DNA of 64,000 nucleotides, taken from Semisulcospira habei. Taxonomy: Eukaryota > Mollusca > Gastropoda > Semisulcospiridae. Shown in pieces: positions 10,277 through 50,031 of the stretch; positions within the stretch are counted from its first letter, which is position 1, and each line of letters starts with the position of its first letter. The translations under genes and the position numbers were made by a program. The DNA lies in the NCBI GenBank assembly GCA_036245525.1, contig BTPG01000004.1, positions 161,017,489-161,081,488 on the forward strand, given 5' to 3'. Below the pieces are notes generated by a model. It was not told where the DNA came from. It saw nothing but the letters and a program-made list of their open reading frames with translations, and searched no databases.

Positions 10277-10307
10277 TAGGCTAGTTTTGCCTGAAAGATT
10301 TTACAGT
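10277..10307 (+). repeat. P2 left terminal inverted repeat (31 bp)
   Basis: TAGGCTAGTTTTGCCTGAAA... is the exact reverse complement of 24070-24100 over all 31 bases. The next bases on either side do not match. Confidence 0.9.
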
Positions 10308-10470
10308 CATCTGTGTAGTCATTTTGAAAATGATGTGTTGAATGCAAGATGTGTTTTGCTAGGAAGGATTTATGTGTTTTGTTAAGAAACATCTTGTAAA
10401 CCAAAAGATAAGTTATGTTTTAATCATATTGCAGACGGTTACTTGTATTAAAATTATATTTTGTATTAAA
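10308..10470. other. P2 left subterminal spacer
   Basis: Noncoding AT-rich sequence. From about 10450 on (TATTAAAATTATA) it aligns with the gap between MCP and ATPase in P3; everything to the left of that does not, which places the permutation breakpoint within a few bases. Confidence 0.65.
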
Positions 10471-11076
10471 ATGGACTTAATGACGCACGATTCACATTGC
10501 GGCCTATTTTGTGGCGCCACTTCGTGTGGGAAGACTGAATTTGTTCTTAACCTCTTACAAACAAGATACCTTCATCATTTCGAAAACATTGTAATATTAT
10601 GTCCAACAATCAAACACAACAAAGCTTATCACAACCGTTTATTCATTTGGACTGACAACAACATATACTTAGTCGACCCTGAGAAAAAACTGAATGATTA
10701 CCTGCTATATTTTTACAAGCAATTTGAAGGACAGCCAACATTGTTCATAGTTGATGACTGTTCTGCAGAAAAAGACATTGTCAAGAAGAGAAACACTCTA
10801 GCAGAACTTGCCTTCAGTGGCAGACATGCAAACATAAGTGTATGGATTCTCACTCAGAAATATAATGCTGTACTGAAAGATTTTCGAGAACAGTTAAAGT
10901 TTATCTGTTTGTTTTACTGTAAGGACCGTGACAGCTTTGAAGACTGTCTCAGAGAGAACGATGTCATTCCAAATAAGCAAGAACGGGATGATGTAAAAAA
11001 TAAACTGAAATCAACTAAGCATCTAAAGCTCATTTTAAAGACAGATCAACCTACAGGGTATGGGTTAGTGAATTAA
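10471..11076 (+). CDS. Packaging ATPase, A32/FtsK-HerA-like (201 aa)
   Basis: Predicted genome-packaging motor that hydrolyses ATP to translocate DNA into the capsid. Walker A is GATSCGKT (residues 15-22), Walker B is LFIVDD (91-96), and a GRHANISVWILTQ block follows, typical of A32-like ATPases of Polintons and large DNA viruses. I start at MDLMTHD because P3 has a 201-aa protein from the matching ATG and the upstream frame is not conserved. The gene follows GTATTAAA and is the first gene inside the left terminus here, whereas in P3 it follows MCP directly. The 131-aa gene starts 27 bases after it on the same strand. Confidence 0.9.
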   Translation: MDLMTHDSHCGLFCGATSCGKTEFVLNLLQTRYLHHFENIVILCPTIKHNKAYHNRLFIWTDNNIYLVDPEKKLNDYLLYFYKQFEGQPTLFIVDDCSAEKDIVKKRNTLAELAFSGRHANISVWILTQKYNAVLKDFREQLKFICLFYCKDRDSFEDCLRENDVIPNKQERDDVKNKLKSTKHLKLILKTDQPTGYGLVN

Positions 11077-11103
11077 TTTATCTTTTGGGTTTGTCTATAA
11101 AAA

Positions 11104-11499
11104 ATGACAGACAGACAAGAAAATCAAAATTGGCCTATTGGTAAATTCATGGATATTACATCGAGTTTCAGGGATTTTATGCTTATTAGTGACTTAAAAA
11201 CACAAGTTAGACGCCCTTTTTCAGAACTCCCATCACCGATGAAGATGTACATGACATATAGTTTTTATCTTGGATATTCTAATACTTTTCCACTTTATAA
11301 TAATAGGACAGCAAATTTTTTAGTTTATGATGCTAAATCTGACTGGTTTAAGATTATGTGTTTAAACATACACTATCAAATAAAAAAAGAAAATAAAAAT
11401 GTTAAATTTATTACTGTCAGTAAAACGATATTACACATGCAAAAGCTTGAAAATGATACCACAGAAGACATATCAATGAAGTGGCTTATTAGTTGGTGA
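11104..11499 (+). CDS. Conserved 131-aa element protein, unknown function
   Basis: Lies between ATPase and PolB on the same strand, preceded by GTCTATAAAAA directly at the ATG (MTDRQENQ). Homologues in the same place in P3 (42140-42534, broken) and P4 (56224-56487) show it is part of the core set. It contains VYDAKSDWFKIMC, conserved as VYDANCDWFE in P3. No membrane segment and no recognised fold. Confidence 0.8.
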   Translation: MTDRQENQNWPIGKFMDITSSFRDFMLISDLKTQVRRPFSELPSPMKMYMTYSFYLGYSNTFPLYNNRTANFLVYDAKSDWFKIMCLNIHYQIKKENKNVKFITVSKTILHMQKLENDTTEDISMKWLISW

Positions 11500-11591
11500 T
11501 TAATTTTGTCTATTATATAGATTTTAGTCAATAAAGTGCCATTTTCATTATATAATTTTCTATTTATTTTTTTGTCGGACAAATAAAAAAG

Positions 11592-14500
11592 ATGGACAAC
11601 CATCAAAGATTAAGAAACGTGTTTCACACAACTGACTTACCTATATCTAATATTTACAATGTCTATGAATCAATAGAAAGATCTTTTTTAGTCATACAAA
11701 ATAACCTTCTTTCTGATAGTGTAAAGATTCAGATTGTTGCAAAAATAGAATTTGCCAGAGATGTTGGTGAAGTTATTGTAACGTATATCTCGACAAGGCA
11801 GCACACAGTTAATTCAAGAAGAGAACTAGAGAAAGTGTTTAGAGAAAGATTGTTACCAGACTTCCATGAAGCAATTGACAGAGCAGAAATGCAAGGGTCT
11901 GGCTGGCATGAAGGCCTTGTACATGAACTACAACTAAAGCAGTCAAGATATCATCCTATTTTAGGGAAATCATGGATACCACTACCAAAAGAGGTTGTAG
12001 ACAAAAAGGGTGTGGTCAATATTCAGAACAATGATAATTTCTGTTTTATGTGGTGTGTACTTGCCAAACTGCATTTTGTAAAAACAAAACCTGAACGTGT
12101 ATCTAACTATACCAATTTTATAAATGAACTCAACTTCAGTGGCATTGAGTTCCCTGTTAAAATAGAGGACATAGACTTGTTTGAAAAACTAAATCCTGGT
12201 ATATCTGTAAATGTGTTTGTGTGGGAAAATGAATCTGAGAATAAGTTACAGCCAATTAGAGTATCTCCAATTGCCCCAACCTATGGGCAGTCAGAAGATA
12301 AACATGTTGATATGTTACTAATAAGCTCTGGTGATAACTTTCAATACACAATTATTAGGAGTATGTCACGACTAATTCATAATCATGTATCAAAACACAA
12401 TGGCAAACAGGAAATATGTAAAAGATGCTTACAAAGGTTCTCCTGTATAAAAGTGGCACATAAGCATACCCAGCACTGTAGGTCGGCTGATGACATTCAA
12501 ACAATACTTAGGTATCCAGATCCTGGCAGCAAGGTTTATTTCAAGAACTATGTTAATCAACAAAAGCTGCCATTTGTAGTATACGCAGATTTTGAATCAC
12601 TCGTCGTTCCATATGAAGGTCCAGTTCCAGAGTCATTACCAAAGACTATAAAATTGAGTGACCAAGTGGTGTGTTCTTTTGGATACATTATTGTTAGGTC
12701 AGACGGTCTTCATTCAGAGCCTGTTATCTACAGAGGTGAAAATGCAGCATGCCTGTTTTTAATAGAAATGAGACAACTGTATAGTCAGGTAGTACAATAT
12801 CTCACAACATGTCAGATGCCTTTGGTGATGACAGAAGAAGACAAACTGAAATTTGATACAGCTGTGACGTGTTGGATTTGCGAACAGCCTCTGGGGGGTG
12901 ATAAAGTTCGTGACCATGATCACATAACTGGATGTTACAGAGGTGCTGCACATAACAATTGTAACTTGTTATTAAAAATAGATCCTAAGACATACAAGTT
13001 ACCAATCTTTTTCCACAATCTGAAGGGATATGATTCACACATTATCATGCAGGCTGTGGATGAGTCTTACAGAAACATAAGTTGTATTGCTCAGACAACT
13101 GAGAAATACTTGACTTTTAGGTTAGACAAATTATCATTTTATGACTCTATGCAACATCTGTCTTTAGGGTTGGCTAGTCTAGCAGAAGGACTGACTGAGT
13201 ATCCAATAACAAGTAAATATTTTGAGCCAGACTTGATTAAAAAAGGTGTTTATCCATATGAGTACATCAGTGACTGGGTAGTGTTTGAAGAAAGGAGACT
13301 GCCTCCAAAAGAGAAATTTTATTCTACACTAACTGGCAAAGGTATTTCTGACTCTGATTACCAGCACGCACTTGATGCATGGGGTAAACTAGGATGTCAG
13401 ACAATTGGTGACTACCATGACCAGTACTTGAAAGCTGACGTTTGCTTGCTAGCAGATGTATTTGAAAGTTACCGTGAGAAGGGTTTGTTACATTACAGTC
13501 TTGACCCAGCTTGCTACATCACTAGTCCTGGCATGACATGGGATGCATTTTTGAAATCCAGTAAGATATTTATAGACCTGTTGTCTGATCGTACGATGGG
13601 TGAAATGGTGGAACGCGGATTGAGGGGGGGCATTAGTTTAGCAGCAAATAATTATGCCAAGGCAAATAATAAATATCTTGACGACTTTGACCCCTCAATG
13701 TCAAGGTCATTTATTACGTACTTGGATGCTAATAATTTGTATGGATTTGCAATGTGTGAATTGTTGCCATTAAAAAACTTTTGTTTGTATGATTTGTCAC
13801 AGTATGGCATAAAAAAATTAACAAAATATATTATGGCTCGAGGTCAAAATGATGAAAAGGGTTGGATCTTTGAAGTAGACCTGGAGTACCCACACCATCT
13901 ACATGATTACCACAATGATTATCCATTAGCAGTTGAGAAAATGAGTATGACAGGGAAAAAAGAAGACACCAAACTAGTGCCAAATTTAAATGATAAATTC
14001 AATTACGTGTGTCACTATCGCTTGTTACAGTTTTACATCAGACATGGGTTAGTACTAAAGAAAGTTCACAGAGGTATTCAATTTGATCAGAGTGCTTTCA
14101 TGAAAGATTACATAATGAAGAACACCACATTGCGTGCCAGAGACGGCAACACTGCATTTGACAAAGACTTCTTTAAGCTTATGAACAATGCCTGTTTTGG
14201 CAAGACTATGGAAAATCCTCATCACCGCAAAGATGTGAGACTGGTCACAACTGAATCAGGTGCAATTAAACTTACAGGTAAGCCACAGTACACAGGGTAC
14301 AAAGAATTTCATTCATCATTGTACGCAGTGTCACTCAAAAAAAAGATTGTTAAACTAGACAAGCCAGTATTCATTGGTATGGCAATTCTTGAATTGTCAA
14401 AACTGTTGATGCTTGAATTTTATTATGATTACTTCAAACCAAAGTATCCTGAGTGTCGTCTGCTATACACTGACACTGACTCTATGATCATAGACGTGCC

Positions 14501-15017
14501 TACTGAAGACTTTTATGAAGACATGAAAACAGAGTTACACATGTATGACACATCTGATTACCCTAAAGACCATACACTGTTCAACACACAAAACAAGAAA
14601 GTGCCTGGTAAGTTTAAAGATGAACTAAATGGTGTGCCTATAGTTGAGTACGTTGGTCTGAGATCAAAAATGTATTCTATACTGCATCAAAAGGGAAGTC
14701 AATCCAAAGCCAAAGGTATCAAAAAAACAGCGATAAAAAATAAAGACATCCGTCATGAACATTACAAGAAAGTGTTAGATGGAGAACTGATGCCTGATTA
14801 TCCAAACAAAACACTGAGGTCAAATAGACACAATATTGAAATGATTCAAACACAAAAGAAGTCTCTAGCAGTAGGGGACACGAAACGAGTGTTTTTCAGT
14901 AAGGAGAAAGCTTATGCACCTGGTCATTACAGGCTCAAGTTATCTGAAGAAATAGCTGATGAACTGGTTGATGAACTAATCAATGAGTTAGTTGATGAAA
15001 TGATTAAAAATGCGTAA
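11592..15017 (+). CDS. Family B DNA polymerase, protein-primed type, with HNH insert (1141 aa)
   Basis: Replicative polymerase of the element. N-terminal region of unknown fold with DNFCFMWCVLAKLH (148-161); C2H2-like zinc motif CKRCL...H...C (276-296); exonuclease motif I YADFES (331-336), II HNLKGYDSH (475-483), III YLKADVCLLAD (612-622). Between exo I and II is CWIC...DHDHITG..RGAAH..CN (427-457), an endonuclease VII/HNH-type zinc motif. Polymerase motif A YLDANNLYGFAM (710-721), motif B KLMNNACFG (862-870), motif C YTDTDSM (959-965). All catalytic acids are present. The protein-primed subgroup is inferred from family resemblance and Polinton context. It ends tail to tail with the integrase, overlapping by 14 bases. 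Confidence 0.95.
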   Translation: MDNHQRLRNVFHTTDLPISNIYNVYESIERSFLVIQNNLLSDSVKIQIVAKIEFARDVGEVIVTYISTRQHTVNSRRELEKVFRERLLPDFHEAIDRAEMQGSGWHEGLVHELQLKQSRYHPILGKSWIPLPKEVVDKKGVVNIQNNDNFCFMWCVLAKLHFVKTKPERVSNYTNFINELNFSGIEFPVKIEDIDLFEKLNPGISVNVFVWENESENKLQPIRVSPIAPTYGQSEDKHVDMLLISSGDNFQYTIIRSMSRLIHNHVSKHNGKQEICKRCLQRFSCIKVAHKHTQHCRSADDIQTILRYPDPGSKVYFKNYVNQQKLPFVVYADFESLVVPYEGPVPESLPKTIKLSDQVVCSFGYIIVRSDGLHSEPVIYRGENAACLFLIEMRQLYSQVVQYLTTCQMPLVMTEEDKLKFDTAVTCWICEQPLGGDKVRDHDHITGCYRGAAHNNCNLLLKIDPKTYKLPIFFHNLKGYDSHIIMQAVDESYRNISCIAQTTEKYLTFRLDKLSFYDSMQHLSLGLASLAEGLTEYPITSKYFEPDLIKKGVYPYEYISDWVVFEERRLPPKEKFYSTLTGKGISDSDYQHALDAWGKLGCQTIGDYHDQYLKADVCLLADVFESYREKGLLHYSLDPACYITSPGMTWDAFLKSSKIFIDLLSDRTMGEMVERGLRGGISLAANNYAKANNKYLDDFDPSMSRSFITYLDANNLYGFAMCELLPLKNFCLYDLSQYGIKKLTKYIMARGQNDEKGWIFEVDLEYPHHLHDYHNDYPLAVEKMSMTGKKEDTKLVPNLNDKFNYVCHYRLLQFYIRHGLVLKKVHRGIQFDQSAFMKDYIMKNTTLRARDGNTAFDKDFFKLMNNACFGKTMENPHHRKDVRLVTTESGAIKLTGKPQYTGYKEFHSSLYAVSLKKKIVKLDKPVFIGMAILELSKLLMLEFYYDYFKPKYPECRLLYTDTDSMIIDVPTEDFYEDMKTELHMYDTSDYPKDHTLFNTQNKKVPGKFKDELNGVPIVEYVGLRSKMYSILHQKGSQSKAKGIKKTAIKNKDIRHEHYKKVLDGELMPDYPNKTLRSNRHNIEMIQTQKKSLAVGDTKRVFFSKEKAYAPGHYRLKLSEEIADELVDELINELVDEMIKNA

Positions 15018-15963
15018 CAGTGTCTGGGGGAATAATCTGTAATTCTTCTCTGACAAATGCCCTCTGAGGCGCAGGCTCATACAGATAATATATTGTTGCA
15101 TCTGGACCAGGGATTATTTTTTTTATATTATGAACAGATGTTGACCAGATGGGGTCTGTCGCCCTGCGTCTTATGTCATTTTCAGCTTCCCCTGGTTGAT
15201 ATAAATATCTCACCTGTTTGGTAAATAAACTTGTGTCTGGAGGTGGGGTTGGCCCTTTTTTTGGCTCTGCAATTGTTTTCAATTTAATAGCATCAGCAGG
15301 CTTAGGGTGTCCTTCATTATTCATTGCTTTTATCACATGTGGTAATCTCTTTACCCACTCAGTGTTACGGGTGTCATGCATGAGTTCCTTAGAATACTGG
15401 TAACTGAAAAGTCTCTCTGACAACTGTTTATTGAAATTTTCTACAATTGCCTGTGATCTGTGCACACCTGGAATACCGCGTCTGACCAGTACGCCATGCT
15501 TAGCAAATAACTGATTAACTGCACCTTTGAATTCTGATCCATCATCAACCTGCACTAGTCTGGGGTATCTTAAAGGGCCTCGACCATATATTTTTGTTAA
15601 AGAAGTAGCAACTGTACTGGCAGTTTTGTCAGATATGGGTTCAGCGTCTTTGTACCTTGAAGCTATGTCTACGACAGTTAATGCATACTTGTATCGTTTC
15701 TTTCTTATTGTGTCATGTGGTAAGAACAAAAGGTCCATTTGGTGTGTGTCATTTGGGGTAGTGTTTTCAAAATGGGGTCTTGTTATTTTTCTTGGAGCAG
15801 GAAGATATATCTGCCAAATTGCCTGTCTCTGTAACCATTGCTTGACTTTATTGAGTGTTATATCTCCGCCCACAGCGGCATGTAATTTCTGAATAGCTGT
15901 TGCTCCTTTCCAATAGCCTGATGGAGAGTAATATATTTTTGATAATTTATTTTCGGCTGCCAT
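15004..15963 (-). CDS. Retroviral-type DDE integrase (319 aa)
   Basis: Inserts the element into host DNA, producing the 6-bp target duplication seen for P3. Acidic triad: Asp77 (HQMDLLFLP), Asp140 (VQVDDGSEF) and Glu175 (QAIVENF), spacing 62 and 34. The N-terminal part (YYSPSGYWKG...KQWLQRQAIW) looks like a helix-turn-helix region, and the C-terminal YQPGEAENDIRRRATDPIW block is chromodomain/SH3-like as in Polinton integrases. Start chosen at MAAENKLSK; it lies 17 bases inside the end of the 144-aa gene. Fully open and probably functional. Confidence 0.93.
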   Translation of the reverse strand: MAAENKLSKIYYSPSGYWKGATAIQKLHAAVGGDITLNKVKQWLQRQAIWQIYLPAPRKITRPHFENTTPNDTHQMDLLFLPHDTIRKKRYKYALTVVDIASRYKDAEPISDKTASTVATSLTKIYGRGPLRYPRLVQVDDGSEFKGAVNQLFAKHGVLVRRGIPGVHRSQAIVENFNKQLSERLFSYQYSKELMHDTRNTEWVKRLPHVIKAMNNEGHPKPADAIKLKTIAEPKKGPTPPPDTSLFTKQVRYLYQPGEAENDIRRRATDPIWSTSVHNIKKIIPGPDATIYYLYEPAPQRAFVREELQIIPPDTVTHF

Positions 15964-16381
15964 TTTTTCTAGCAATGAAAACTCCTGTAAAATAAACAAA
16001 TGTCATTCCCACTAGAACAAAGATTATCTCCCCGTTTCTTTGTTCTGTACTCGGTTTGTAATAGTCACTTAGTTTTGGTTTTGGGATAGACATGTCTTCA
16101 CCCGTGACAAGAAAATATTCCCTGATTGCTTCGTCTGTATTTGAAAACGTATGCTGTGCGTGACCTTCAAGCCTGAGTTTTTCATTGATGAAATCAAGTT
16201 TCTCAATTCTATTCTTTTCATAATCTTGCTGGGCTTGAGCAAGTTTTTCAGATGCTTCATTATGACGTTTTAATTCTTCTGCAGATTCTTCTCTACCCAT
16301 TTTTGAAAAGAGATAATTAGAGCCACTAAATGCCAGAGCATTAACCATAGCACCTCCTATCATAATAGCTATCGTCGCCAT
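15947..16381 (-). CDS. Two-membrane-segment coiled-coil protein (144 aa)
   Basis: MATIAIMIGGAMVNAL opens a hydrophobic N-terminal segment (2-20). A Glu/Lys/Gln-rich helix follows (35-75), then FVLVGMTFVYFTGVFIARK near 119-138 as a C-terminal membrane helix with a basic tail. Conserved in P1 and P3. Its 3' end overlaps the integrase start. Role unknown; virion membrane or assembly protein is an inference. Confidence 0.8.
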   Translation of the reverse strand: MATIAIMIGGAMVNALAFSGSNYLFSKMGREESAEELKRHNEASEKLAQAQQDYEKNRIEKLDFINEKLRLEGHAQHTFSNTDEAIREYFLVTGEDMSIPKPKLSDYYKPSTEQRNGEIIFVLVGMTFVYFTGVFIARKNGSRK

Positions 16382-16392
16382 ATTATTTTTAT

Positions 16393-16623
16393 TTACATAG
16401 AAACATTTTCGGGAATAATTCCCTGCTTGACAAGAAAGTCTTTTGTCGCAATCGACGCTGTAACAACTACAATTAGCTTAGTGCTGTCTTCGAAATCGAG
16501 TCTACTGAGGTCTGCTGATTTCATTTTGAGTAGACTTTTTCCCAGCATAGAATAAGCTACTGCTAATCCGCTGATTACGGCAGAGTGATACACAAGGTTC
16601 ATTAAATTTTTTGAGTCGTTCAT
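16393..16623 (-). CDS. Conserved 76-aa small protein
   Basis: MNDSKNLMNLVYHSAVISGL start, hydrophobic in residues 8-30, ending KQGIIPENVSM. Open in P2 and P3, nonsense-broken in P1. Eleven bases separate it from the 144-aa gene on the same strand. Function unknown. Confidence 0.75.
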   Translation of the reverse strand: MNDSKNLMNLVYHSAVISGLAVAYSMLGKSLLKMKSADLSRLDFEDSTKLIVVVTASIATKDFLVKQGIIPENVSM

Positions 16624-16658
16624 TTCTTAGGCAAGAAAAATTAAAATAATATTTTTAT

Positions 16659-17109
16659 TTACTGCATAAAAAATGGGTCAACGGCTTTGGATGTTACTGG
16701 TAATGTGGCGACTTCTGGTTTTGTTTTTGGAGTGTCTGATATTTTGGTCACTGTACGAGTCTGTGGTTTGTATTTTTTGTATAATTGATAACCTACGTAA
16801 CCAAATCCGACAACAAATCCGGCAACTACATATTTTGTTGTTTGAGGTTAGGGGTCAGGGTCAGACTTAGTTGTTTGTCTCTCACTTTCATGAAGGTGTG
16901 ACGGTACTGACACAGGTCCTGATGATCCTGACGGTGGATCAGTTACATGAGTCTTTTCTGTTTGTGCCTTAAGCTGTAATTTTTTTTTGCCTATTATATT
17001 CAGCTAATCTTTTTCCAGCATCAACACGGCCTGGACTTTTAGTCTTCGTCACAGTTTGAACCTGTGTCAAAACAGGGTTCAGTTGTGGAGTCGCCTGGGT
17101 TTCGTCCAT
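16659..17109 (-). pseudogene. P2 basic, single-membrane-helix protein, frame-broken
   Basis: Start MDETQATP lies in another frame inside the 3' end of the 175-aa gene. An A9 run near 16980-16988 shifts the frame compared with A8 in P1, and a TAA interrupts it further on. Beyond that VAGFVVGFGYVGYQLYKKY and the ending PFFMQ are still readable. The plus-strand frame over 16673-16870 is only a shadow of this gene. Confidence 0.65.
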
Positions 17110-17566
17110 TTTCTTCTGCAGTAAAATTTATTTTCGAAAAATCAATATGGCTACCAGTAACTAGTAATGTTACCACAGGTGCAAGGTAATTTCCAAACTT
17201 GTAAAACATGACACATGCTAATTTACCAATTGAACTTGAAACAATAGGATTGCTTTCAAGGTCGTGTGATAGACTGTCACTATCCACAGGTAGAAAGTGA
17301 CTCACTGCTTTTGTGTATAGGCATACTAGAGATCGACTCAAATCACGTGTCATTAGTGAGGCAATGTGGTTTTCATATTTAGAATGAAGCTTGATTAGCT
17401 CGTCAGAGGTTAGAGATTCAATATCCTCTGTCATGTATTGTCTTCCTAGATAAGTCTTTGATTTGCCTGAGACAATTACAGACAAAAGCCGCTGTTTTTT
17501 GGAGTCTACGTCTTTGTTCTCTACAGCACAGATATCGTTTAGAAGAAGTAATTCGTCTTGATTCAT
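17039..17566 (-). CDS. Conserved 175-aa element protein
   Basis: MNQDELLLLNDICAVE start; open in P1, P2 and P3. Helical look, a hydrophobic stretch around 125-145, and an acidic tail (GRNPGDSTTEPC). The last 71 bases are dual coding with the next gene. In P3 this is the first gene inside the left terminus; here it is internal. No family recognised. Confidence 0.82.
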   Translation of the reverse strand: MNQDELLLLNDICAVENKDVDSKKQRLLSVIVSGKSKTYLGRQYMTEDIESLTSDELIKLHSKYENHIASLMTRDLSRSLVCLYTKAVSHFLPVDSDSLSHDLESNPIVSSSIGKLACVMFYKFGNYLAPVVTLLVTGSHIDFSKINFTAEENGRNPGDSTTEPCFDTGSNCDED

Positions 17567-17601
17567 TTTTATAATGAAAAAAAAAAACTTTGCCTGTGAA
17601 T

Positions 17602-17680
17602 AACTTATGATCTTACTTGATAACTAATTTCAAAGTTACCTACAACTTACAAGTAACTTTGACGTTAGTTATCATAAGTT
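17602..17680. repeat. P2 palindrome between the 175-aa gene and the small Pro-rich gene
   Basis: AACTTATGAT...CAAAGTTAC and GTAACTTTG...ATCATAAGTT form an imperfect hairpin; the first arm carries an extra 7-8 bases. P1 has the same structure (6039-6130). P3 has its element ends here instead. Confidence 0.8.
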
Positions 17681-17747
17681 CTTAACCCAAGTCATAAGAC
17701 ACTCGGACAGATTTCTCAAGTTACAAGGACAATAAGAAAACTTTTTT

Positions 17748-17849
17748 TTAGTAATAATCTGGTGGTGGAGCTGATGGCGTCAAATGAGCAGGCATGACAT
17801 CTCTTTGCGAAGTGTATGACAAAAATAATGGATTACCAAAACCTATCGT
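17748..17849 (-). CDS. Small conserved Pro-rich peptide ending APPPDYY (33 aa)
   Basis: The frame runs from ACG ATA GGT TTT GGT to a SAPPPDYY end, which includes a PPxY motif (PPDY). The ACG overlaps the stop of the 211-aa gene by one base. In P1 the same position is ATG. The reading is conserved across P1, P2 and P3, with mostly silent or conservative changes. It may start at a non-AUG codon, by reinitiation, or by a -1 shift from the 211-aa frame, which stays open through this region. PPxY motifs bind WW-domain ubiquitin ligases; that link is inference. Confidence 0.55.
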   Translation of the reverse strand, partial: TIGFGNPLFLSYTSQRDVMPAHLTPSAPPPDYY

Positions 17850-18484
17850 TACTTGCTTGTAAGTTCTCGAACTTTTTTCATAGTTTCTTCTACGCCTATC
17901 TTTTTTCCTTGTTCTAAAAAAGATTTCTTTAGCTCTTCAACATTTACAGCCTGACTACGCATCTTATTCTGTATTTCAGATTTCTGTTGTTTATAGTTAG
18001 CCAAATCATCCTGGACTCGCTTAAATTCTTCGTCATCAATTTCATTATCATTTAAAGCCTTACTAATAATAAGTTTCATACTCGTCAGCTTAGCTGCTGC
18101 GAGCGTACTTAATGCTTCATGCTTCTGCAACTTAGTATAAAATTTTTTGTTAAGGGCTTCCATACCAAAGCATGCTAGACTTGTGACAAGACCAATACCT
18201 TCAACAGCAATTCCTATAACACTTCCCACCCCCGTTGCAAAAAGAGTTATACCTCCTACAGATAATCCGGCCGAAACCACCCCCATGGCCATTGATGTGT
18301 TGTGTACAGAATTGAAAACCGTATTGTAACGGCGTTTACACCTCGAGTATTTTGCTTGTTCTTCTTCCAAATACTTCAACGCTTCTGTAATATTCATTAA
18401 ACGGAATGAATCTGCCTTTAATGTTTTATCACGCTCAATAGACTCAAGCTGCTCAGGTGGTATTTGTGGATACAAGTTCACCAT
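17849..18484 (-). CDS. Glycine-rich membrane protein (211 aa)
   Basis: N-terminal Pro-rich head (LYPQIPPEQ), helix to residue 60, then a Gly/Ala-rich hydrophobic block (about 67-110; GVGSVIGIAVEGIG, LVTSLACFG). This is followed by a long charged helix (FKRVQDDLANYKQQKSEIQN) and a Lys-rich end. A membrane-active or membrane-anchored virion protein is plausible, but no family is recognised. Open in P2 and P3. Confidence 0.8.
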   Translation of the reverse strand: MVNLYPQIPPEQLESIERDKTLKADSFRLMNITEALKYLEEEQAKYSRCKRRYNTVFNSVHNTSMAMGVVSAGLSVGGITLFATGVGSVIGIAVEGIGLVTSLACFGMEALNKKFYTKLQKHEALSTLAAAKLTSMKLIISKALNDNEIDDEEFKRVQDDLANYKQQKSEIQNKMRSQAVNVEELKKSFLEQGKKIGVEETMKKVRELTSK

Positions 18485-18504
18485 TTTTTATGACAAATAT
18501 TTTT

Positions 18505-19383: not shown

Positions 19384-19404
19384 TTTTATAAACAAAAATA
19401 AAAT

Positions 19405-20119: not shown

Positions 20120-20143
20120 TTTTATTATCACATAAAAAAAAGG
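20120..20143. promoter_or_regulatory. Divergent start region between mCP and the 408-aa gene
   Basis: Only 24 bases separate the two opposite start codons: TTATCACATAAAAAAAAGG toward 408, and an ATAATAAAA motif toward mCP. P3 keeps the arrangement (46981-47006). Leaders must be extremely short. Confidence 0.5.
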
Positions 20144-22570: not shown

Positions 22571-22611
22571 TGTTTTTATTAATTTAATTTTTTTTATTGT
22601 GCATAATAAAA
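22571..22611. promoter_or_regulatory. Divergent start region between the 407-aa gene and MCP
   Basis: 41 bases, almost pure A/T, with GTGCATAATAAAA directly before the MCP ATG. P3 (44470-44507) and P4 (55646-55684) keep the same divergent pair with 38-39 bases. Confidence 0.55.
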
Positions 22612-23895: not shown

Positions 23896-24069
23896 AAGTA
23901 TTCACTTAGCTTGGTTTTAATCCTTCACAGCCCATTTTGAATACCGAAATCACTATAAAATCCGAACGTATTAGTAGGCACGTCACGCTTGTGCTGAAAC
24001 ACGGACTAAACTGAAAATAAAAGGCGTCGTTTCACTGAGGTAACCGTTTCAACCTTCCTGGTCATAAGC
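23896..24069. other. P2 right subterminal spacer
   Basis: Noncoding sequence between the MCP stop and the right inverted repeat. It has no counterpart in P3, where ATPase follows MCP after 19 bases. Confidence 0.6.
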
Positions 24070-24100
24070 ACTGTAAAATCTTTCAGGCAAAACTAGCCTA
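24070..24100 (-). repeat. P2 right terminal inverted repeat (31 bp)
   Basis: ACTGTAAAATCTTTCAGGCA... is the exact reverse complement of 10277-10307. Confidence 0.9.
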
Positions 24101-36152: not shown

Positions 36153-36161
36153 ATAAAAAAT

Positions 36162-41600: not shown

Positions 41601-42039
41601 ACAGCCTTTTTGTCTGCAACCTATTTTGGTAGAGGCAGCCATGATTTGCCTAAAATAGGATGATACCTTGACTGCTTCAGTTGCAGTTCATGTACACGAC
41701 CTTCATGCCAACCAGACCCCCGCATTTTTGCTCTGTCAATTGCTTCGAGAAAGTCAGGCAACAGTCTTTCTCTAAACACTTTTTCCAATTCTCTTCTCAA
41801 ATTAACTGTGTGTTGTCTTGTTGAGATATACGAAACAATCACTTCACCATCTACCCTTGTAAATTCTATTTTTGCAACAATCTGAATCTTTACACTGCCA
41901 GAAAGAAGGTTATCTTGTATGACATAAAAAGACCTTTCTATCGATTCATAGACACTGTAAGTGTTCGATATAGGCAAATCTGTTGTGTAAAACACGTTTC
42001 TTAAGCTTGATGGGCTTTGGGCATTGTCTGCCCTTTTTA
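38608..42039 (-). pseudogene. P3 family B DNA polymerase, multiply frameshifted
   Basis: Homologous over its length to the 1141-aa P2 polymerase, but split into at least five frames (breaks near 39220, 39820, 40530-40630, 41450-41620) and the start codon is lost (GGCAGAC instead of ATGGAC). Exonuclease I (YADFES), the HNH-type DHDHITGRYRG, motif A (YLDANNLYGFAM), motif B and motif C (YTDTDSM) can all still be read. Confidence 0.9.
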
Positions 42040-42139
42040 TTTGTCCGACAAAATAATAAATATAAAAATTACACCTTGTGTAATACCACTTTATTGACTG
42101 TAACACCTACAATAAACAGATTCAGTTTATATAGTTCAC

Positions 42140-42534
42140 TCACCAACAAATCAACCACTTTCCTGGTATGTGTCTTAAGGTCTTGTGCTCATGCTGCAGG
42201 TGTAATATCACTTTATTGACAGTAACAAATTCAATATAATCATGTTGTTTACTTAGATGGTAGAATATGTGTAAACACATACTCTCAAACCAGTCACAGT
42301 TAGCATCATAAACTATAAAATCTTGTGTCTTAAGATCAACAGTCTTGTAATTATAACATGGTGAACTATTAGAATATCCAAAAAGTTACATTAAATGTTA
42401 TGTATTGTTGGTGTTGAGAGTTTTATCAAAGGCTCAAACGGATGTTTAACTTGTGTTTTTAAGTCATTAAAATGCACAACACCTCTGAAGCTCTCTGTGA
42501 TATCAAATGCTCGCCCGCTTTGTCTGTCTGTCAT
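42140..42534 (-). pseudogene. P3 copy of the 131-aa protein, frameshifted
   Basis: Start MTDRQSGRAFDITESF after a GTCCATAAAAA motif; a one-base loss near 42390 breaks the frame. IVYDANCDWFESMCLHIF and the KWLICW end are recognisable. Confidence 0.7.
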
Positions 42535-42561
42535 TTTTTATGGACAAACCATAAGTATAAA

Positions 42562-43167
42562 TTAATTCACTAATCCATACCCTGTGGGCTGATCTGTCTT
42601 TAAAATAAGCTTTAGATGCTTAGTTGATTTCAGTTTGTGTTTTACGCCATCTCGTTCATGTTTATTTGGGATGACATCGTTTTCTCTGAGACAGTCTTCA
42701 AAGCTGTCATGATCCTTACAGTAAAACAAACAGATAAACTTTAACTGCTCACGAAAATCTTTCAGTACAGCATTATATGTTTGAGTGAGAATCCATACAC
42801 TGATATTTGCATGCCTGCCACTAAAAGCAAGTTCTGCTAATGTGTTTCTCTTCTTAACAATATCTTTTTCTGCAGAGCAATCATCAACAATAAACAAAGT
42901 TGACTGTCCTTCAAATTGCTTGTAAAAATACAGCAGGTAGTCATTCAGTTTTTTCTCAGGGTCAACTAAGTAAATGTTGCTGTCAGTCCAAATGAATAAA
43001 CGGTTGTGATAAGCTTTGTTGTGTTTGATCGTAGGACAAAATATCACAATGTTTTCGAAATGATAGATGTATCTTGTTTGTAAGAGATTAAGAACAAATT
43101 CAGTTTTTCCACAGCCTGTGGCACCGCAAAACAAACCACAGTGTGGGTCAAGTGTCATCAAGTTCAT
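42562..43167 (-). CDS. P3 packaging ATPase (201 aa)
   Basis: Homologue of 10471-11076, open, with Walker A GATGCGKT and Walker B LFIVDD. Starts 19 bases after the MCP stop on the same strand, so MCP and ATPase form a tandem pair in P3. The gap (AATTATAATTAGTATTAAA) is the point where P2 is cut. Confidence 0.9.
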   Translation of the reverse strand: MNLMTLDPHCGLFCGATGCGKTEFVLNLLQTRYIYHFENIVIFCPTIKHNKAYHNRLFIWTDSNIYLVDPEKKLNDYLLYFYKQFEGQSTLFIVDDCSAEKDIVKKRNTLAELAFSGRHANISVWILTQTYNAVLKDFREQLKFICLFYCKDHDSFEDCLRENDVIPNKHERDGVKHKLKSTKHLKLILKTDQPTGYGLVN

Positions 43168-43186
43168 TTTAATACTAATTATAATT

Positions 43187-44469
43187 TTAATATATGTGTC
43201 CACTCAGTCTGCTTTCTGCAATATTGAGTTGAGCATCATAAATCAGATACAAATATATATTAATTGCACCAGCGGTTTCAGTCTTTTTTTTAATTTGGAT
43301 TGTAATTCCGTCACTACCGTTTTCAACAGTATGACCTGACCCATGTAGATAGTCATCGTCTGTACTACGCAGGTCTAGCCATAGTGCATACTTGTCTGTC
43401 AGGTATTGAGCAATTCTTACGTCATACAGATGCAGATCTTTACATGCTATGTTTGCTGGTTTTTCTCTAAGCCTTCCGCCTGCAAAATATTTTGTGATCT
43501 CGTCATAGTGCTGGTAAGGTAGCATACCCGAAGCATACACTTGATTAGGACGGCCTTCAATAGTACAAGACAAATGGTTAATCTTTGGATTGTAAAATTT
43601 TTCTGAATCCCTTTGGTATGGACTTCCCGGTTCAACAAACAGCATAAGAATGCCTTTCAGTGACGTAGCAGGTGTGTTCAAGTTGATGTTCCACATTGGG
43701 TCGCTTTTGTCTTCATGAATCAAACTGTGTCTTAACACACGATCATAATAAATCGGCAGTCTTGACTGGTACTGATTTTGAATTAGAGTAGCTAAATGAG
43801 CATGTGTGACAATTTCATATTCCAAAGAGATGTTAGAGATCTTGTATGTTGCGTCTGTGTCAGTTGCTTTAATAACTTTGGAGTGGTCATTGAAAATTAG
43901 TTCAAAACTCAGACGGTCATTCAGTGCGCCTTGATAATAAGGCAAATGCGCTGTTAGGATTTCAAATTCAAGTGGAATGCAAAATCTATTTCCATATGTT
44001 TCTGCCACAATAACGTCCTTGACTTCTGTTGTTGATGTATCTGATGCATTGATTCTGAGTTTGGCAACATTATCAGCCTGTATGCCTTGGTAAATACGGT
44101 CTTCTCTTTCTTCACTTGTAAGCCACAGATCTTTGTAACAGTAGAATACATCAGCATCATCAAGACTAAACACTTCCTGTCCTTCAAGTTTAACTTTAAT
44201 AGTCTTAATAATTGCTCTGCCAAGGTTGCCAACTAGTGTTCTTTTGTCATCTGTGTTTGATGAAAGTTCAATATTAAAAGCAAGGCGAGCAGTACCAGGA
44301 ACAATAACGTCACTGGGGCCTAGGTTACGAAACTTGACAGTAAGGGTTTGGTTCGGGTCTATAGTACTTGGATTGTTTGTGATAACATTCATTGTCTAAT
44401 GCCCTTAACACCAAGAGGCTCACGTAGTTTTCTGTATGGGTCTAACTTTGATCCGTAGGACTGTGTCAT
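43187..44469 (-). pseudogene. P3 major capsid protein, one early frameshift
   Basis: Homologue of 22612-23895. From 44392 the frame is open to the end for 400 codons. The first 25 or so codons (MTQSYGSKLDPYRKLR) are separated by a one-base loss near 44393. Either a recent inactivating change or a base error. Confidence 0.82.
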
Positions 44470-44507
44470 TTTATTATGCACAATAAAAATATTAAATTCA
44501 TAAAACA

Positions 44508-45730
44508 ATGGCAGCGGGAGGATTTAACCATGAAGATTTTAAAATGGATGACATGAATGACTATGATACTGGTGCAACAGATATGACTGGAATGGTAACT
44601 ACTTCTAGTATGCATCGCGAACTGTTAAAAGACAAAGTAAACTCGTTTTATGATAGTGTTGGTGACCGCCCAGATGAAATAGATCCTAACCAGTTTGAAT
44701 ATGAAAAAGGTCATTTATATTTAAACACTTTTGATAAAGGAAAAGTAAAATTGACTAACAAAAGAGACCCCGGCAAATTTAGAGCTTTAAGTACAATCAA
44801 AAGTGAAGGTGGTGTTGGTGCCTTGCGTCAACTTGGTATTGGAGATAAAAAGTTGCCACCTAGACTTGCTAGTACCCTTCATGACGTACAAACAAGATTG
44901 CCAACTGGTCAAGAAATTGAAATGACTGAAGTAAAAAGGCTTCCAGAAATAGCAGACAAGGTATTACACGAAACTTCATTTGCAGAAGGGCAAATAAATG
45001 AGGTTATGAAAACAATAGAAGACTCTCCTTTGACAATGCAGGAGTTAGTGGGCTTGGATAAAACACTGCAGTCAATAAGAGGTGAGATTGTAAATAATGT
45101 AGCCAAACTAGGGGAGCTTGATAATCACATAGAAAGAGAAAAAGAAAAATTAGCTAAAGCTGAGGATGAGAATTATGACACAGAAATGAAAGAAAGAATA
45201 CAACACAGATTAAATGATTTGCAGATAGAAAGATCAGCGCGACTAGAAGTAGTTGAAATAGGAAAAGAAAAACTGAAAACACAGGTCAACAGGATTAGAG
45301 AAACTATTCAAAAAATACTTCACGAAGACACAACTTTGGCTGAAAGATTGAAAACACTTTTCAGAGAGCAGGGTATTACTATTGCAAGTTTAATTACTGC
45401 TCTTGGATTTATTATTAGTACTGTAGTGTTAGCTGTAACGGGTGGACCAGGTGGTAGCACCCCGGCCCCTCCAGCTCCTCCAGTTCCATCAGACCCAAAA
45501 GATTTACAGTCGTGGGTAAAAAAAAACAGTTGTCTCATATATCAGACTTGCTTCAGAAATTGGCTGTAAAAGCAATGGATGCTTTGCCTGGCATAATAGG
45601 GAGTGTTGTCAGTTGGCTGATAGGTACAGCAGCAAAGGTAGTAGGGTTTATGGCAGAGCATGTATGGGTCTTTTTGGTGACAGTAGGAGGGTTAATAGTG
45701 GGTTATTTAATGAAACAGGTAAAGAAGTAA
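44508..45730 (+). pseudogene. P3 coiled-coil membrane protein, frameshift in A-run
   Basis: Homologue of 21347-22570. Open for 353 codons; a run of nine A at 45518-45526 shifts the frame after WVKK, and the C-terminal membrane segments continue in the next frame to 45730. Confidence 0.85.
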
Positions 45731-45739
45731 TATTCCTAA

Positions 45740-46980
45740 TCCAGTAAGGCCAATTACCAATGCAGTTCTCTCTGACTCATGTGTGTTTACTGGGGTTATG
45801 GCTGTGCTGGTACCGGTGCAGGTGCCGATGCTGGGGCTGTTACTGACATTACTATCTGTACAGGTGATGATGATGTTACTGGTGTTATTAATGGTTTTAA
45901 TGGTTGTAGGTGAGTGGTTGTTGGGCTCAAGTTTACAGATTGATTGAGTCCTAATTTTTGATCATGCCCAGCAACAATTATTTAATTATTATAATTTGTT
46001 ATTGTCCCCATTTGGAGTTGAAGGTCAGATGGTAACATGTATAACCCAATGCCAACTACAAAGTCAACTTTCGATCTAGCATATCTGAGAACGTCTTGGT
46101 AGTGTTGTATGCTTGATGGGAGATCTACTACTGAGTTAATTGAATCTTCTAAGTTTGCAAGAAACTGTTTTTGAGATTCAAACTTTCCACTTCCATTCAA
46201 AATGTTTGATTTTGTTTGAGCTTGTGCTCCTAGAATACACCACACATACGTTCTGATAGACTCATTAATGCGTTCGACTCCCGCTTGAGTAAACCCGTCA
46301 CTTTTGTCTAAGACAAATGTGGTCCAGGCATTAGACTGTTTCTGTTCAATTAAGCCTAACCAGACTTCTGATTTTGATGAGAATGAAGAGTAGGGAGGCC
46401 AGTAATCTTGAGGGTATTGTCTGTGACTCATAGCATAATACAATGTACCCATGCCTTTGTGATCATCAAATTTTTGTGTGAAGTCATACTTTGTACTGAT
46501 GTTAAATTCATTACAGATGCGTTCAAATGCTTTCAAATCCATGGGATTGTTAAACTGATTAAACCTGGATTCAGTGGGCAGTGGGGTATGCAGTTCTGAC
46601 AGTATTCTTCTAAGCTGGTAATATGTGTGGAAACGATAGACAGACTTAATCAGTTTGTTTGGATGATTCAAATGGTCTGTAAAAGAAACGCCACAGCCAG
46701 TAGTTGAGCATAGTATAGCAAAGTTAAGCTGGTTTTGAAACATCTGTAGTGGGCTTGAGGACCACTTTCTTGCAGTTGCATCATCTGTTATTGGAGGGTT
46801 TAGGTAATGCTCATATGGATTTGGCACTTTCACTTGAAATAAATCTGCTTCGGACAAAGCTATATCGAGCTCATGTAGCTGAATTATTTTCTGATCATAA
46901 GTTGGTGCGACATTGTATTTGGCATTCACGTTCAATTGAAACGCGTTTACAGTGGCAATTGTTGGTGATTTAAATTCCAT
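45740..46980 (-). pseudogene. P3 copy of the 408-aa protein, truncated by nonsense
   Basis: Open from 46980 to 45982, where TAA stands in place of GAA. Downstream, the Pro/Ala/Val-rich linker DNA (45800-45950, GGTGCTGG-like repeats) and the THESERTAL plus membrane-anchor region are still present but out of frame. Confidence 0.82.
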
Positions 46981-47006
46981 TATGCTTTTTTTATGTGATA
47001 ATAAAA

Positions 47007-47723
47007 ATGTTTATAACTTTATCAAATCTTGATACAAGCAAACCAGTGTGGTTAACTAATGGAATTGATAATCGAGATGGTAGCAAGGCTGTAGCTATCC
47101 ACGAAATGTTCTACACTGTAAAGTGGTTTAATGTAACAGATGATAAAAATTATTCTGTAAGTGGAACTCTCGATGGTATTGAGAAGGGCGATATTTTACG
47201 AGCTGGGTATTATGACTTTTGTACTTTAGCTGATTGGCTTCAAAATGAATTTAAAATTAAAGCAACTTTAAACCCAGCTAATTTACTTGTTACAATTGAA
47301 TTTCCGAAAAGTGGAAACTTTTCTTTATCAATAAGTCTTTTATTACTACTTGGATTTTTAGGTAAAAAACTTATACATCCAAATGAAGATTGGACATCGT
47401 CAGTCGGGCGTCTACTTTCACCAAGAAAATCAAGAATAACTGGCAGATATCCTGTTCATTTGTCAGTACACACAGTGCTAAATGTTCATTTGAAAGAACT
47501 AAGCACTACTGATAATCTTCACAATGGAAAGCCTTCGACTTTGCTGAAATGCGTGTCAACTGGAACTGCTCCTTATTGCGAAAATGTAGTTGTTAGATTT
47601 CCTAATTCACAGTTTAAAAAATTAGGCTCCAGTTTCTTTGAATCATTGTGCATATCTGTAACTAACCAGGATGACAAACCAGTTGTCATGCATGATTTTT
47701 ATGTTGTGTTGGAAGTTAAATAA
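47007..47723 (+). CDS. P3 penton-like minor capsid protein candidate (238 aa)
   Basis: Open version of the mCP gene, MFITLSNLDTSKPVWL start after GATAATAAAA. Contains AGYYDFCTLADWLQNEF, ISLLLLLGF and a beta-rich C-terminus ending FYVVLEVK. Likely forms capsid vertices if the Polinton comparison holds. Followed by the 291-aa gene after 24 bases. Confidence 0.78.
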   Translation: MFITLSNLDTSKPVWLTNGIDNRDGSKAVAIHEMFYTVKWFNVTDDKNYSVSGTLDGIEKGDILRAGYYDFCTLADWLQNEFKIKATLNPANLLVTIEFPKSGNFSLSISLLLLLGFLGKKLIHPNEDWTSSVGRLLSPRKSRITGRYPVHLSVHTVLNVHLKELSTTDNLHNGKPSTLLKCVSTGTAPYCENVVVRFPNSQFKKLGSSFFESLCISVTNQDDKPVVMHDFYVVLEVK

Positions 47724-47747
47724 ATTTTATTTTTGCAAAATAAAAAA

Positions 47748-48623
47748 ATGAGCGGTCTTGGTCCAAAGCCGAGAATTATTCCAGTTGCATGTCCGTCAAT
47801 AGAGTTGAAAGATTTGGCTGACGTGCAAGATTTTGATAAAGAAGGTGAGGTAGGAGAGGTGTATGGCCTTGAACTTGTTTCCGTTGGATTGTACAAACGA
47901 AAGGCAATTGATGATGTAAAAGATGGCGCGTTTCCTAAACTTAGTCAACTTCGTGATGTTACTGTTCCTACTCCTGTAAATAATGTGCTCTACAGCTTAA
48001 AACATGTGGCTAATAAGTGGGTAATTATTCCTACCCCTGTTCCGCTTGCACCTATTCCCATTGTATGGGATGTAAAGTTTGTTTTCATCAGTCCTTCTGT
48101 TTATTTTACTGATGAAGGAGCCTTAGTATTTAGAAAAGTTGTTAACTCTGAGCCAATGCTTGTAAGTCTTGTGCCAAGCTATTTCGCAGAAACCAATAGC
48201 AGAGAAAAACTAAAACTTCAAGAGTATGGAAAACGAAGGTATTTTCTTACAAATAGAAAGGGTAGAACAGATACTTCTATTTCGTTCGTACCAGCAAATT
48301 TTACCATAGATAGAGAAGCGACAATAGTTTTTGAAATTCTCATGAGATCTGTGGAAGCTGTGAAAGAAACAGATATCGCACAGGGAATCAAACTTACATG
48401 GGATAGCTCAGTAGCAGAGTCAACAAAGGTTGTTATTGCTATTAGAAAAACCAATACAGATTTTGAAGTTTTGAGTAGTGTCCCTGCTGTTAAGGTAGTG
48501 ATTGATAAAACAATTTTTGTTCGTCTAAGTTTGATAAACCTGGAACATATAGATCTTGTTTCATTTTATTATGCTAGCAAATTGTATACCTTTGAAGAGT
48601 TGCAAAATAAATTAGAAGATTAA
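47748..48623 (+). CDS. P3 conserved beta-rich element protein (291 aa)
   Basis: Homologue of 18505-19383; MSGLGPKPRIIPVACP start after GCAAAATAAAAAA. Open throughout. Conserved YGKRRYFLTNRKGRTDTSIS and INLEHIDLVSFYYASKLYTF. Function unknown, probably structural by position. Confidence 0.82.
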   Translation: MSGLGPKPRIIPVACPSIELKDLADVQDFDKEGEVGEVYGLELVSVGLYKRKAIDDVKDGAFPKLSQLRDVTVPTPVNNVLYSLKHVANKWVIIPTPVPLAPIPIVWDVKFVFISPSVYFTDEGALVFRKVVNSEPMLVSLVPSYFAETNSREKLKLQEYGKRRYFLTNRKGRTDTSISFVPANFTIDREATIVFEILMRSVEAVKETDIAQGIKLTWDSSVAESTKVVIAIRKTNTDFEVLSSVPAVKVVIDKTIFVRLSLINLEHIDLVSFYYASKLYTFEELQNKLED

Positions 48624-48648
48624 TTAAAAAAATATTTGTCATAAAAAA

Positions 48649-49284
48649 ATGCCACCACTTTATCCACAAATACCACCTGAGCCACTTGAGCCTATTGAGC
48701 GTGATAAAACATTACAGGCAGACTCATTCCATTTAATAAATATTACAGACGCGTTGAAGTATTTGGAAGGAGACCAAACAAAATACTCCCGGTGCAAAAG
48801 ACGATATAAAATGGTTTTCAATTCTGTGCACAACACTTCAATGGCTGTGGGTGTGGTTTCAGCCGGATTATCTGTAGGATGTATAGCTCTGTTTGCAACA
48901 GGAGTGGGAAGTGTCATAGGAATTGCTATTGAAGGTGTTGGTCTTGCCACAAGCCTGGCATGCTTTGGTATGGAAGCCCTTAACAAAAGATTTTATATGA
49001 AGTTGCAGAAGCATGAAGCATTGAGTACGCTCGCAGCAGCTAAGCTGAGCAGTATGAAACTTATTATCAGTAAATCTTTGGAAGATAATAAAATTGATGA
49101 TCACGAATTTAAGAGAGTCCAGGATGATTTGGCCAATTACAAACAACAGAAATCTGAAGTACAAAATAAGATGCGTAATCAACCCGTGAACGTTGAAGAG
49201 CTAAAAAAATCTTTTTTAGAACAAGGGAAAAAGATAGGCGTAGAAGAAACTATGAAAAAGGTTCAAGGACTTATAAGCAATTAA
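48649..49284 (+). CDS. P3 glycine-rich membrane protein (211 aa)
   Basis: Homologue of 17849-18484, open. MPPLYPQIPPEPLEP start after GTCATAAAAAA; Gly/Ala membrane block, then a charged helix. In P3 it is the next-to-last gene before the right terminus. Confidence 0.8.
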   Translation: MPPLYPQIPPEPLEPIERDKTLQADSFHLINITDALKYLEGDQTKYSRCKRRYKMVFNSVHNTSMAVGVVSAGLSVGCIALFATGVGSVIGIAIEGVGLATSLACFGMEALNKRFYMKLQKHEALSTLAAAKLSSMKLIISKSLEDNKIDDHEFKRVQDDLANYKQQKSEVQNKMRNQPVNVEELKKSFLEQGKKIGVEETMKKVQGLISN

Positions 49285-49394
49285 CGATAGGTTTTGGTAA
49301 TCCATTATTTTTGTCATACTCTTCACAAAGAGATGTCATGCCTTTCACGCCTGCCTATTTGATGCCATCAGCTCCACCACCAGACTATTACTAA
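49284..49394 (+). CDS. P3 small conserved Pro-rich peptide ending APPPDYY (36 aa)
   Basis: Overlaps the 211-aa stop by one base (TAACG). Frame GFGNPLFLSYSSQRDVMP... ends SAPPPDYY, including PPDY. Three codons longer than in P2 near FTPAYLMP. No ATG at its start. Confidence 0.55.
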   Translation, partial: TIGFGNPLFLSYSSQRDVMPFTPAYLMPSAPPPDYY

Positions 49395-49784
49395 AAAAAA
49401 GGTTTTTTATTGACCTTGTAACTTGGGAAATCTGTCCGAGTATCTTAATGACTTGGGTTAAGAACTTGTTAAGAACTTGTTAAGACACTTATAAAAACTT
49501 GTTTTAAGTCACTTGAAAGAACTTATGGCAACTAACTTCAAAGTTACTTACAAAGTTACTTACAGGTTTATAAAGTACCTTATTAAGTACTTGTAATTTA
49601 CTTAGAAACATCCAGAAAGTAACATAAACAGTACCTTGATAATTTTACCCATGACATTGACCATGACCTTGCTGACCTTGACCTTGGTGACCTTGACCTT
49701 GGTGACCTTGACCTTGGTGGCCTTGACCTTGGTGACCTTAATCTTGGTCTGTGACTTTATCTTAACCCTTGACCTTAAAAAGCC
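49395..49784. repeat. P3 right subterminal spacer with 15-bp minisatellite
   Basis: 49395-49600 starts like the P1/P2 spacer (GGTTAAGAACTT) and then diverges into AACTT/GTTACTTAC-rich sequence. 49666-49740 is a tandem array of a 15-base unit (GACCTTGACCTTGGT). Open frames here on either strand are repeat artefacts. Confidence 0.75.
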
Positions 49785-50031
49785 TTTGTTTAAAGAAGTC
49801 AATGGCAGCATTATTTATTTAGGTGGGGGTGGGGATCTGCCTTAATGATCACGGGTTGGCAGCTGATCAAAAATCGTTGCTTGAATGATTTCTGGAATGA
49901 AACTAAAATGGCTAGGTAATAAAGACATTGACTGTCTTGGTTGGCATGGGCTTGTATAATTACCGAGTTAATTAGTATAAATCAATTGATTGGGGGATGG
50001 GTGCCCATCACCTGTCTAATTATCTATCTCT
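49785..50031 (-). repeat. P3 right terminal inverted repeat
   Basis: Reverse complement of 34713-34958. The last bases CTATCTCT mirror the AGAGATAG start. Confidence 0.95.

Follow-up and report, generated by a model that had tools for sequence, protein, structure and literature searches.

The gastropod Semisulcospira habei carries, in a stretch of 64,000 nucleotides on contig BTPG01000004.1 (C4:161017489-161081488 of the 1.98-Gb genome; hereafter the window, to which all positions refer unless a contig is given), two related mobile elements, P2 and P3, that hold the same genes in circularly permuted order. We interpret P2 and P3 as members of two sister families of Polintons (Mavericks) bounded by terminal inverted repeats (TIRs), in which the permuted maps most likely came about through in-place reversal of gene blocks, with the ends retained, and we give this interpretation a probability of about 60%. 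The P3-type order is called map A, the P2-type order map B, and a third order, found elsewhere in the genome, map C; families, TIRs and copies are named accordingly. Beyond the window, we drew 80 loci from this genome (L003-L082), a small sample that was chosen unevenly.

Permuted gene maps in P2 and P3

P2 (map B, 9990..25295) begins with the genes for an ATPase (Pox_A32; 10372..11076, +), a 131-amino-acid (aa) protein (11104..11499, +) and a PolB-type DNA polymerase of 1141 aa (11592..15017, +), followed on the other strand by an integrase (rve; 15004..15999, -) and proteins of 144 aa (15947..16381, -), 76 aa (16393..16623, -), 175 aa (17039..17566, -), 211 aa (17849..18484, -) and 296 aa (18505..19395, -). 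A minor capsid protein (mCP, a name taken over from an earlier, sequence-only reading of this DNA), split over two frames (19405..20131, -), the 408-aa protein (20144..21370, +), the 432-aa protein (21347..22645, -; called 407 in that reading) and a major capsid protein (MCP; 22597..23895, +) complete the map. The predicted fold of the latter matches viral capsid proteins. Between the 211 and 175 genes lies the join peculiar to map B (17567..17848), which contains an imperfect palindrome (17596-17686).

P3 (map A, 34713..50031) runs from 175, 76, 145 and the integrase (34980..38618, +) through PolB, 131, ATPase and MCP (38608..44472, -), with MCP adjoining ATPase, to 432 (+), 408 (-), the minor capsid gene (+), 296 (+) and 211 (+) (44436..49284). 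Its integrase is interrupted by an insertion of ~1.1 kb (36813-37895), and similar sequence occurs nowhere else in the window. The TIRs of P3, one on the 175 side (34713..34958, +) and one on the 211 side (49785..50031, -), are ~247 bp long and 97.2% identical to each other, and the element is flanked by a target-site duplication (TSD) of 6 bp, GAAGAG, at 34707-34712 and 50032-50037.

Aligned by blastn, P2 10446-17592 matches P3 43192-34955 and P2 17651-23901 matches P3 49549-43181, both on the minus strand and with 83-85% identity over the long pieces. Since the two matches together make up a single unit, and their limits in P3 lie within 12 bp of each other between MCP and ATPase, chance is excluded and the permutation is exact. 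The blastn blocks agree with the placement of genes by tblastn, which located MCP, 432, 408, mCP, 296, 211, 175, 76, 144, integrase, PolB, 131 and ATPase where the sequence-only reading had put them. The 'membrane' gene that it placed between 175 and 76 could not be confirmed: at this position, P2 has no ATG-started frame of at least 35 aa, and P3 has a single one, of 38 aa; the list of open reading frames also gives a GTG-started frame of 98 aa in P3 (35621-35917).

The limits of P2 also had to be redrawn. It had been taken to end at 10277 and 24100, bounded by a 34-bp repeat (10274-10307/24070-24103), but this repeat, whose 30-bp core lies at 10278..10307 (+) and 24070..24099 (-), is internal and marks no terminus, since the sequence on its outer flanks is conserved in other copies and a complete copy has its TIR farther out. 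P2 ends on the right at 25295 with a TIR of ~1.2 kb (TIR-B, 24120..25295; terminal motif AGAGATAG), while its left TIR is lost and likeness to other copies ends at 9990. The complete map-B copy, at C1:213.486-213.502 Mb (read as L072/L071), has exactly the order of P2 (MCP- 432+ 408- mCP+ 296+ 211+ 175+ 76+ 144+ INT+ PolB- 131- ATPase-, where INT is the integrase), TIRs of 1173 bp that are 99.5% identical and correspond to 24120-25295 of the window, and a 5-bp TSD, TCCCA, the only B copy tested for one. The suggestion that the integrase can use internal ends finds no support, given that both families begin with the motif AGAGATA and that the tested copies have TSDs.

Sister families across the genome

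The order of P2 recurs in the complete copy, and its end genes recur at the first map-B termini listed, contrary to the possibility, raised in the sequence-only reading, that no other copy has them. The 30-bp core of the internal repeat has 267 matches in the genome at ≤3 mismatches (132 forward and 135 reverse). At the first 30 of these listed, all on contig C1, the first gene inside is ATPase in 16 and MCP or a piece of MCP in 14, only a piece being present in two of the latter (L020 and L036). Among 32 facing pairs of the core, picked by hand from ~100 listed places, 17 are spaced 13.5-14.8 kb apart. In five of the 16 ATPase ends (L013, L023, L027, L029 and L033), ATPase is followed directly by PolB from ~aa 757-767, which is a recurrent internally deleted form; L013 and L023 stand in pairs ~12 kb apart and L029 in a pair of 21 kb.

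For family A, the first 32 nt of TIR-A match 313 places in the genome at ≤3 mismatches, and the first gene inside the first 30 listed is 175 in 15, 211 in three and an MCP fragment in three, with no element gene within 1.5 kb in the remaining nine. TSDs of 5-6 bp were present in nine of nine A pairs (6 bp in three, 5 bp in six) compared to 0 of 72 wrong pairings. All nine have 175 at one end and, at the other, either 211 (two pairs) or nothing within 1.5 kb (seven pairs). Two further A copies, each read in separate stretches, share the order of P3, with distances from TIR to 211 of 1.9 and 3.0 kb. The sequence-only reading was right that these are two sister elements with permuted maps and different end genes, and the difference is heritable, being repeated in further copies of both. 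A first look at the genome gave 8989 candidates for ATPase and 10571 for MCP; given these numbers, and that the 150 ATPase hits listed are all without internal stop, the family is a very large one in S. habei.

How the permuted maps may have arisen

Reversing the blocks [175...ATPase] and [MCP...211] of map A in place gives map B on the other strand, which is formally the same as rotating a circle, and the two courses can be told apart by the ends and by the join. Over its full length, TIR-A is collinear with the outermost ~225 bp of TIR-B (alignment scores of 58 and 66, reached by 4 and 0 of 1000 dinucleotide shuffles, and by 407 of 1000 in the reverse-complement control, made for one pair), and B therefore seems to have retained the old ends. 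At the 211-175 joins of P1 (a third element of the window, described below), P2 and L072, no trace of TIR-A or TIR-B was found in 24 alignments, with each score reached by at least 133 of 500 shuffles. The join forms a palindrome of ~90-100 bp (z -6.9 in P1 and -6.3 in P2), which is not present in the matching stretch of P3 (z -0.07), and the region of P3 beside 211 matches the palindrome arms; the palindrome and this match fit both reversal and a circle.

The third map came from a distant MCP query, for which 97 hits were listed of the 10571 candidates, 78 of them with a 447-aa frame by hand count. The first hit with this frame, at C4:109.07-109.09 Mb, reads 131+ PolB+ INT- 144- 76- 175- ATPase- MCP- 432+ 408- mCP+ 296+ 211+ (map C), which is map A with block 131-175 reversed. 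A further hit that was retrieved, L080, which has a 431-aa frame, resembles A in that region and has MCP adjoining ATPase. L001, a contig of a distant relative, taken as outgroup, that sits in a metagenome-assembled genome (MAG) of Diapherotrites and is probably animal contamination, carries MCP, ATPase, 175 and reversed PolB in map-C order as far as it reaches. The spacing of MCP and ATPase is equal in 13 of 13 A and C copies measured, P3 included, and the two genes are also adjacent in L001 and in P4, an older rearranged element of the window (50621..62592) in which MCP aa 5-101 is followed directly by ATPase aa 150-229 (55682-56180). Together with the adjacency in L080, this indicates that the MCP-ATPase pair is old and was split in B. 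Given, in addition, that 131 stands next to ATPase in both A and B and does not in map C, the simplest series would be C to A to B.

In this series, map C (131 PolB INT 144 76 175 / ATPase MCP 432 408 mCP 296 211) would have become map A by reversal of block 131-175, and map A would have become map B by reversal of both [175...ATPase] and [MCP...211], for which neither a circle nor new ends would be needed. A likely agent would be recombination or template switching between inverted copies, for which the TIRs, as long as 1.2 kb, could serve, as could the inverted MCP and 175 pieces found in some A copies close to the 211 end. In one such copy, L073, MCP is complete and adjoins ATPase, and a second, inverted MCP tail lies close to the 211 end; its block 211-MCP is therefore bounded by inverted copies of the MCP tail, and recombination between these tails would flip exactly this block. 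Another locus that looks like an intermediate stage is L036. Its outermost part is a TIR-A piece, followed inward by TIR-B, the 30-mer, the spacer of B and MCP aa 408-432; the next gene, 211, faces outward, opposite to its direction in map B.

Sequence has also passed between the families. The rearranged element P1 (2374..9324) contains the 211-175 join, a fragment of MCP in inverted orientation and, at its right end (8712-9324), part of TIR-B. Its sequence is a mosaic that mostly resembles A from PolB to 175 (two 200-bp windows are nearer P2 and one is tied) and also resembles A in 296-mCP, is about equally close to both around 211 and resembles B in MCP. TIR-B pieces of 32-111 nt, 95-98% identical, occur in 6 of 15 non-175 A ends. 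Given this mosaic and these pieces, we conclude that A and B exchange sequence.

Several observations weigh against reversal in place. Among the 80 unevenly chosen loci, no copy showed a single A-to-B reversal, which would bring 211 beside ATPase or MCP beside 175, and a pair of reversals that share their boundaries is less parsimonious than a single rotation. TIR-A and TIR-B are 57-58% identical when all columns are counted (72-73% when gaps are left out), the outer 70 bp of their alignment are weaker (score reached by 2 and 9 of 1000 shuffles), and the likeness could stem in part from common terminal signals. The palindrome at the join could be the trace of joined inverted ends. L036 was read only 1.5 kb inward, and, given that the MCP of L073 is complete beside ATPase, its inverted tail may be a captured B end and not the relic of a flip. 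The ends of the map-C copy were looked for and not found, and the full order of map C rests on one copy. In the MCP tree, where 12 A rows represent 10 copies (L073 and L074 being the same copy, as are L075 and L076) and C was left out, A and B copies are sisters with support of 0.92 for B and only 0.31 for A, and P1 groups with B at 0.57. The ATPase tree, with a midpoint root and no outgroup, has an A clade at 0.99 and leaves B unresolved. We looked to these gene trees for the direction of change and they gave no polarity; with A and B as sisters and A weakly supported in the MCP tree, polarity rests on P4, L001 and map C.

Given that no single-flip copy was seen, that a rotation is more economical and that the trees lack polarity, a circular or concatemeric form that was re-opened elsewhere, as proposed in the sequence-only reading, keeps a real share of the probability, although it is clearly the less likely course. 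In such a case, an A element would have been circularized or joined head to tail via its inverted ends, the joined TIRs would have been lost and have left the 211-175 palindrome, and the molecule would have re-opened in the gap between MCP and ATPase and gained terminal repeats there. This would yield the whole permutation from one event, and it agrees with the strength of the palindrome at the B join, with homology on the 175 side ending at most 3 bp from the inner limit of TIR-A, and with circular (circular-mapping) genomes reported for virophages and Polinton-like viruses (PLVs; PMC5636890, PMC7805220). However, the new ends between MCP and ATPase must still carry a TIR collinear with TIR-A, both old TIRs must vanish from the join, and the one-block reversal of map C in the same genome shows that another process was active. 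A circle is thus possible but not required, and map C, the collinear TIRs and the TIR-free join favor reversal in place. The more general proposal, that Polintons here pass through a circular or concatemeric form joined at inverted ends and re-open at another gene boundary, so that rotated lineages arise in one step and become families with their own TIRs, appears somewhat more doubtful still.

Exchange between A and B could also have built map B, or parts of map A, stepwise by capture of ends through recombination, with neither a circle nor clean inversions. Exchange itself is real, as P1 and the TIR-B pieces at A ends attest, and L036 and L073 each unite both kinds of end. On the other hand, the complete B copy has the permuted order with no listed gene duplicated, and independent captures would hardly have met at one boundary to within 12 bp, and we consider this course improbable as a source of the maps. 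Finally, P2 as a joint of two partial elements made by chance or misassembly, for which little speaks beyond the loss of its left TIR, is refuted by the same order in the complete copy on another contig and by the repeated termini, the first 30 of which listed have matching end genes, and by the many matches and recurring spacing of the 30-mer, and is left with next to no probability.

Polinton membership and the rest of the window

PolB, an rve integrase, an A32-type ATPase and an MCP-like fold together identify the elements as Polintons. The integrase matches PF00665 (E 2.3e-10) and the ATPase PF04665, an A32/FtsK-type packaging ATPase (E 1.2e-12 and 3.2e-15). The 1141-aa PolB frame aligns with relatives, some of which carry the name DNA-directed DNA polymerase; PF03175 was found in 4 of 20 aligned members, and not in the window protein itself. 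The MCP model (predicted local distance difference test, pLDDT, of 79) matched capsid proteins of PBCV-1, an iridovirus, mavirus and Sputnik in Foldseek (best E 3e-17, template modeling score ~0.5-0.6), all of which we take to be double jelly rolls, and the window MCP is predicted on this basis to be a viral-type major capsid protein of the double-jelly-roll kind. An MCP profile gave chance-level matches only against the Protein Data Bank (PDB) sequences. The minor capsid protein had no Pfam match, the 408, 432, 296, 211 and 175-aa proteins had none above cut-off, and no protease family was recognized among 17 proteins scanned at E 0.1. TIRs are present in both families (TIR-A of ~247 bp, TIR-B of 1173 bp). 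The TSDs are 6 bp long in only three of the nine A pairs and 5 bp in the other six and in the B copy, compared to the 6-bp TSD of Polintons, and the element ends, AGAGAT, consist of two AG repeats followed by AT, compared to the (AG)3-type end motif of Polintons.

Scans of IMG/VR with MCP (single sequence and alignment), PolB (single sequence), ATPase and integrase found no relative, and a scan with the PolB alignment found one distant contig, L002; the GTDB genomes yielded only L001. Polinton proteins or contigs (P0042, P0093 and L001) were found in MAGs of Thiodiazotropha and Diapherotrites, and are probably animal DNA that was binned with prokaryotes. The 131-aa protein varies among copies: relative to the P2 version, identity is ~28-35% in L071, L078, L080 and L081, though the neighboring genes are alike, 43-50% in L003/L004 and 85-96% in several other copies. 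The unlike forms look like allele replacement.

Four related elements lie in the window, of which P1 and P4 are rearranged remnants. In P1, an MCP fragment (aa 65-277; 8073-8711) is reversed and fused to the minor capsid gene at ~aa 166, which is an inversion with deletion inside an element having the 211-175 join. The right flank of P1 (8712-9324) is TIR-B, like that of P2, and the idea that P1 and P2 are one duplicated host locus with matching right flanks was rejected because the common flank belongs to the element. A single long interspersed nuclear element (LINE; RVT_1) is present in copies or pieces at 1-2377, 9390-9988 and 30006-32391, 93-99% identical where matched, and one of the three abuts PolB of P1.

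Relation to other elements and viruses

Polintons are usually pictured as having a conserved, linear gene map and protein-primed ends, and the elements described here probably belong with the midsize eukaryotic linear dsDNA (MELD) virus- or adintovirus-like Polintons. They share with animal Polintons and Mavericks PolB, an rve integrase, an A32-type ATPase, a capsid protein of the double-jelly-roll kind, TIRs and a TSD, here of 5-6 bp, and differ in that gene maps vary within one genome; no protease was recognized in the proteins scanned, several of which have no assignment.

The sequence-only reading started from a gene order fixed within a lineage, a premise that stands only in part. In vertebrate Mavericks the order is generally conserved and two gene modules generally face the center, but in Rhinella marina the modules point apart and in Xenopus tropicalis they are both on the same strand (PMC8097293), so that a double as well as a single flip seems to occur among these elements. 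As in our elements, two modules stand between TIRs and their relative direction differs between lineages; the accessible text does not describe these arrangements as permutations (PMC8097293). In S. habei, in contrast, sister families at ~84% DNA identity occur in one genome, together with a third map and with mixed ends as possible intermediates. On the favored reading, the finding is one of module flips, known from vertebrate Mavericks, here between sister families in one genome.

In the endogenous mavirus-like elements (EMALEs) of Cafeteria, gene order is poorly conserved between types and TIRs are reportedly regenerated after truncation; unlike here, order is syntenic within a type, and the part of the report that we could consult gives no circular permutation between close sisters (PMC8547959). 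Virophages and PLVs are relatives of Polintons, and unlike their reported circular genomes, families A and B are TIR-bounded and integrated, with TSDs in the tested copies. In the literature on gene order, circularity and inversion in Polintons and adintoviruses, so far as its text was available, we found no report of circularly permuted sister families, including in the accessible portions of PMC11071296 and PMC12721341.

With its sister families of rotated maps, its one copy in which a block is reversed, its mixed ends and its thousands of candidate copies, this genome constitutes a dense natural experiment on how linear virus-like elements rearrange. A census of these copies could directly tell block flips between fixed ends from circular forms.

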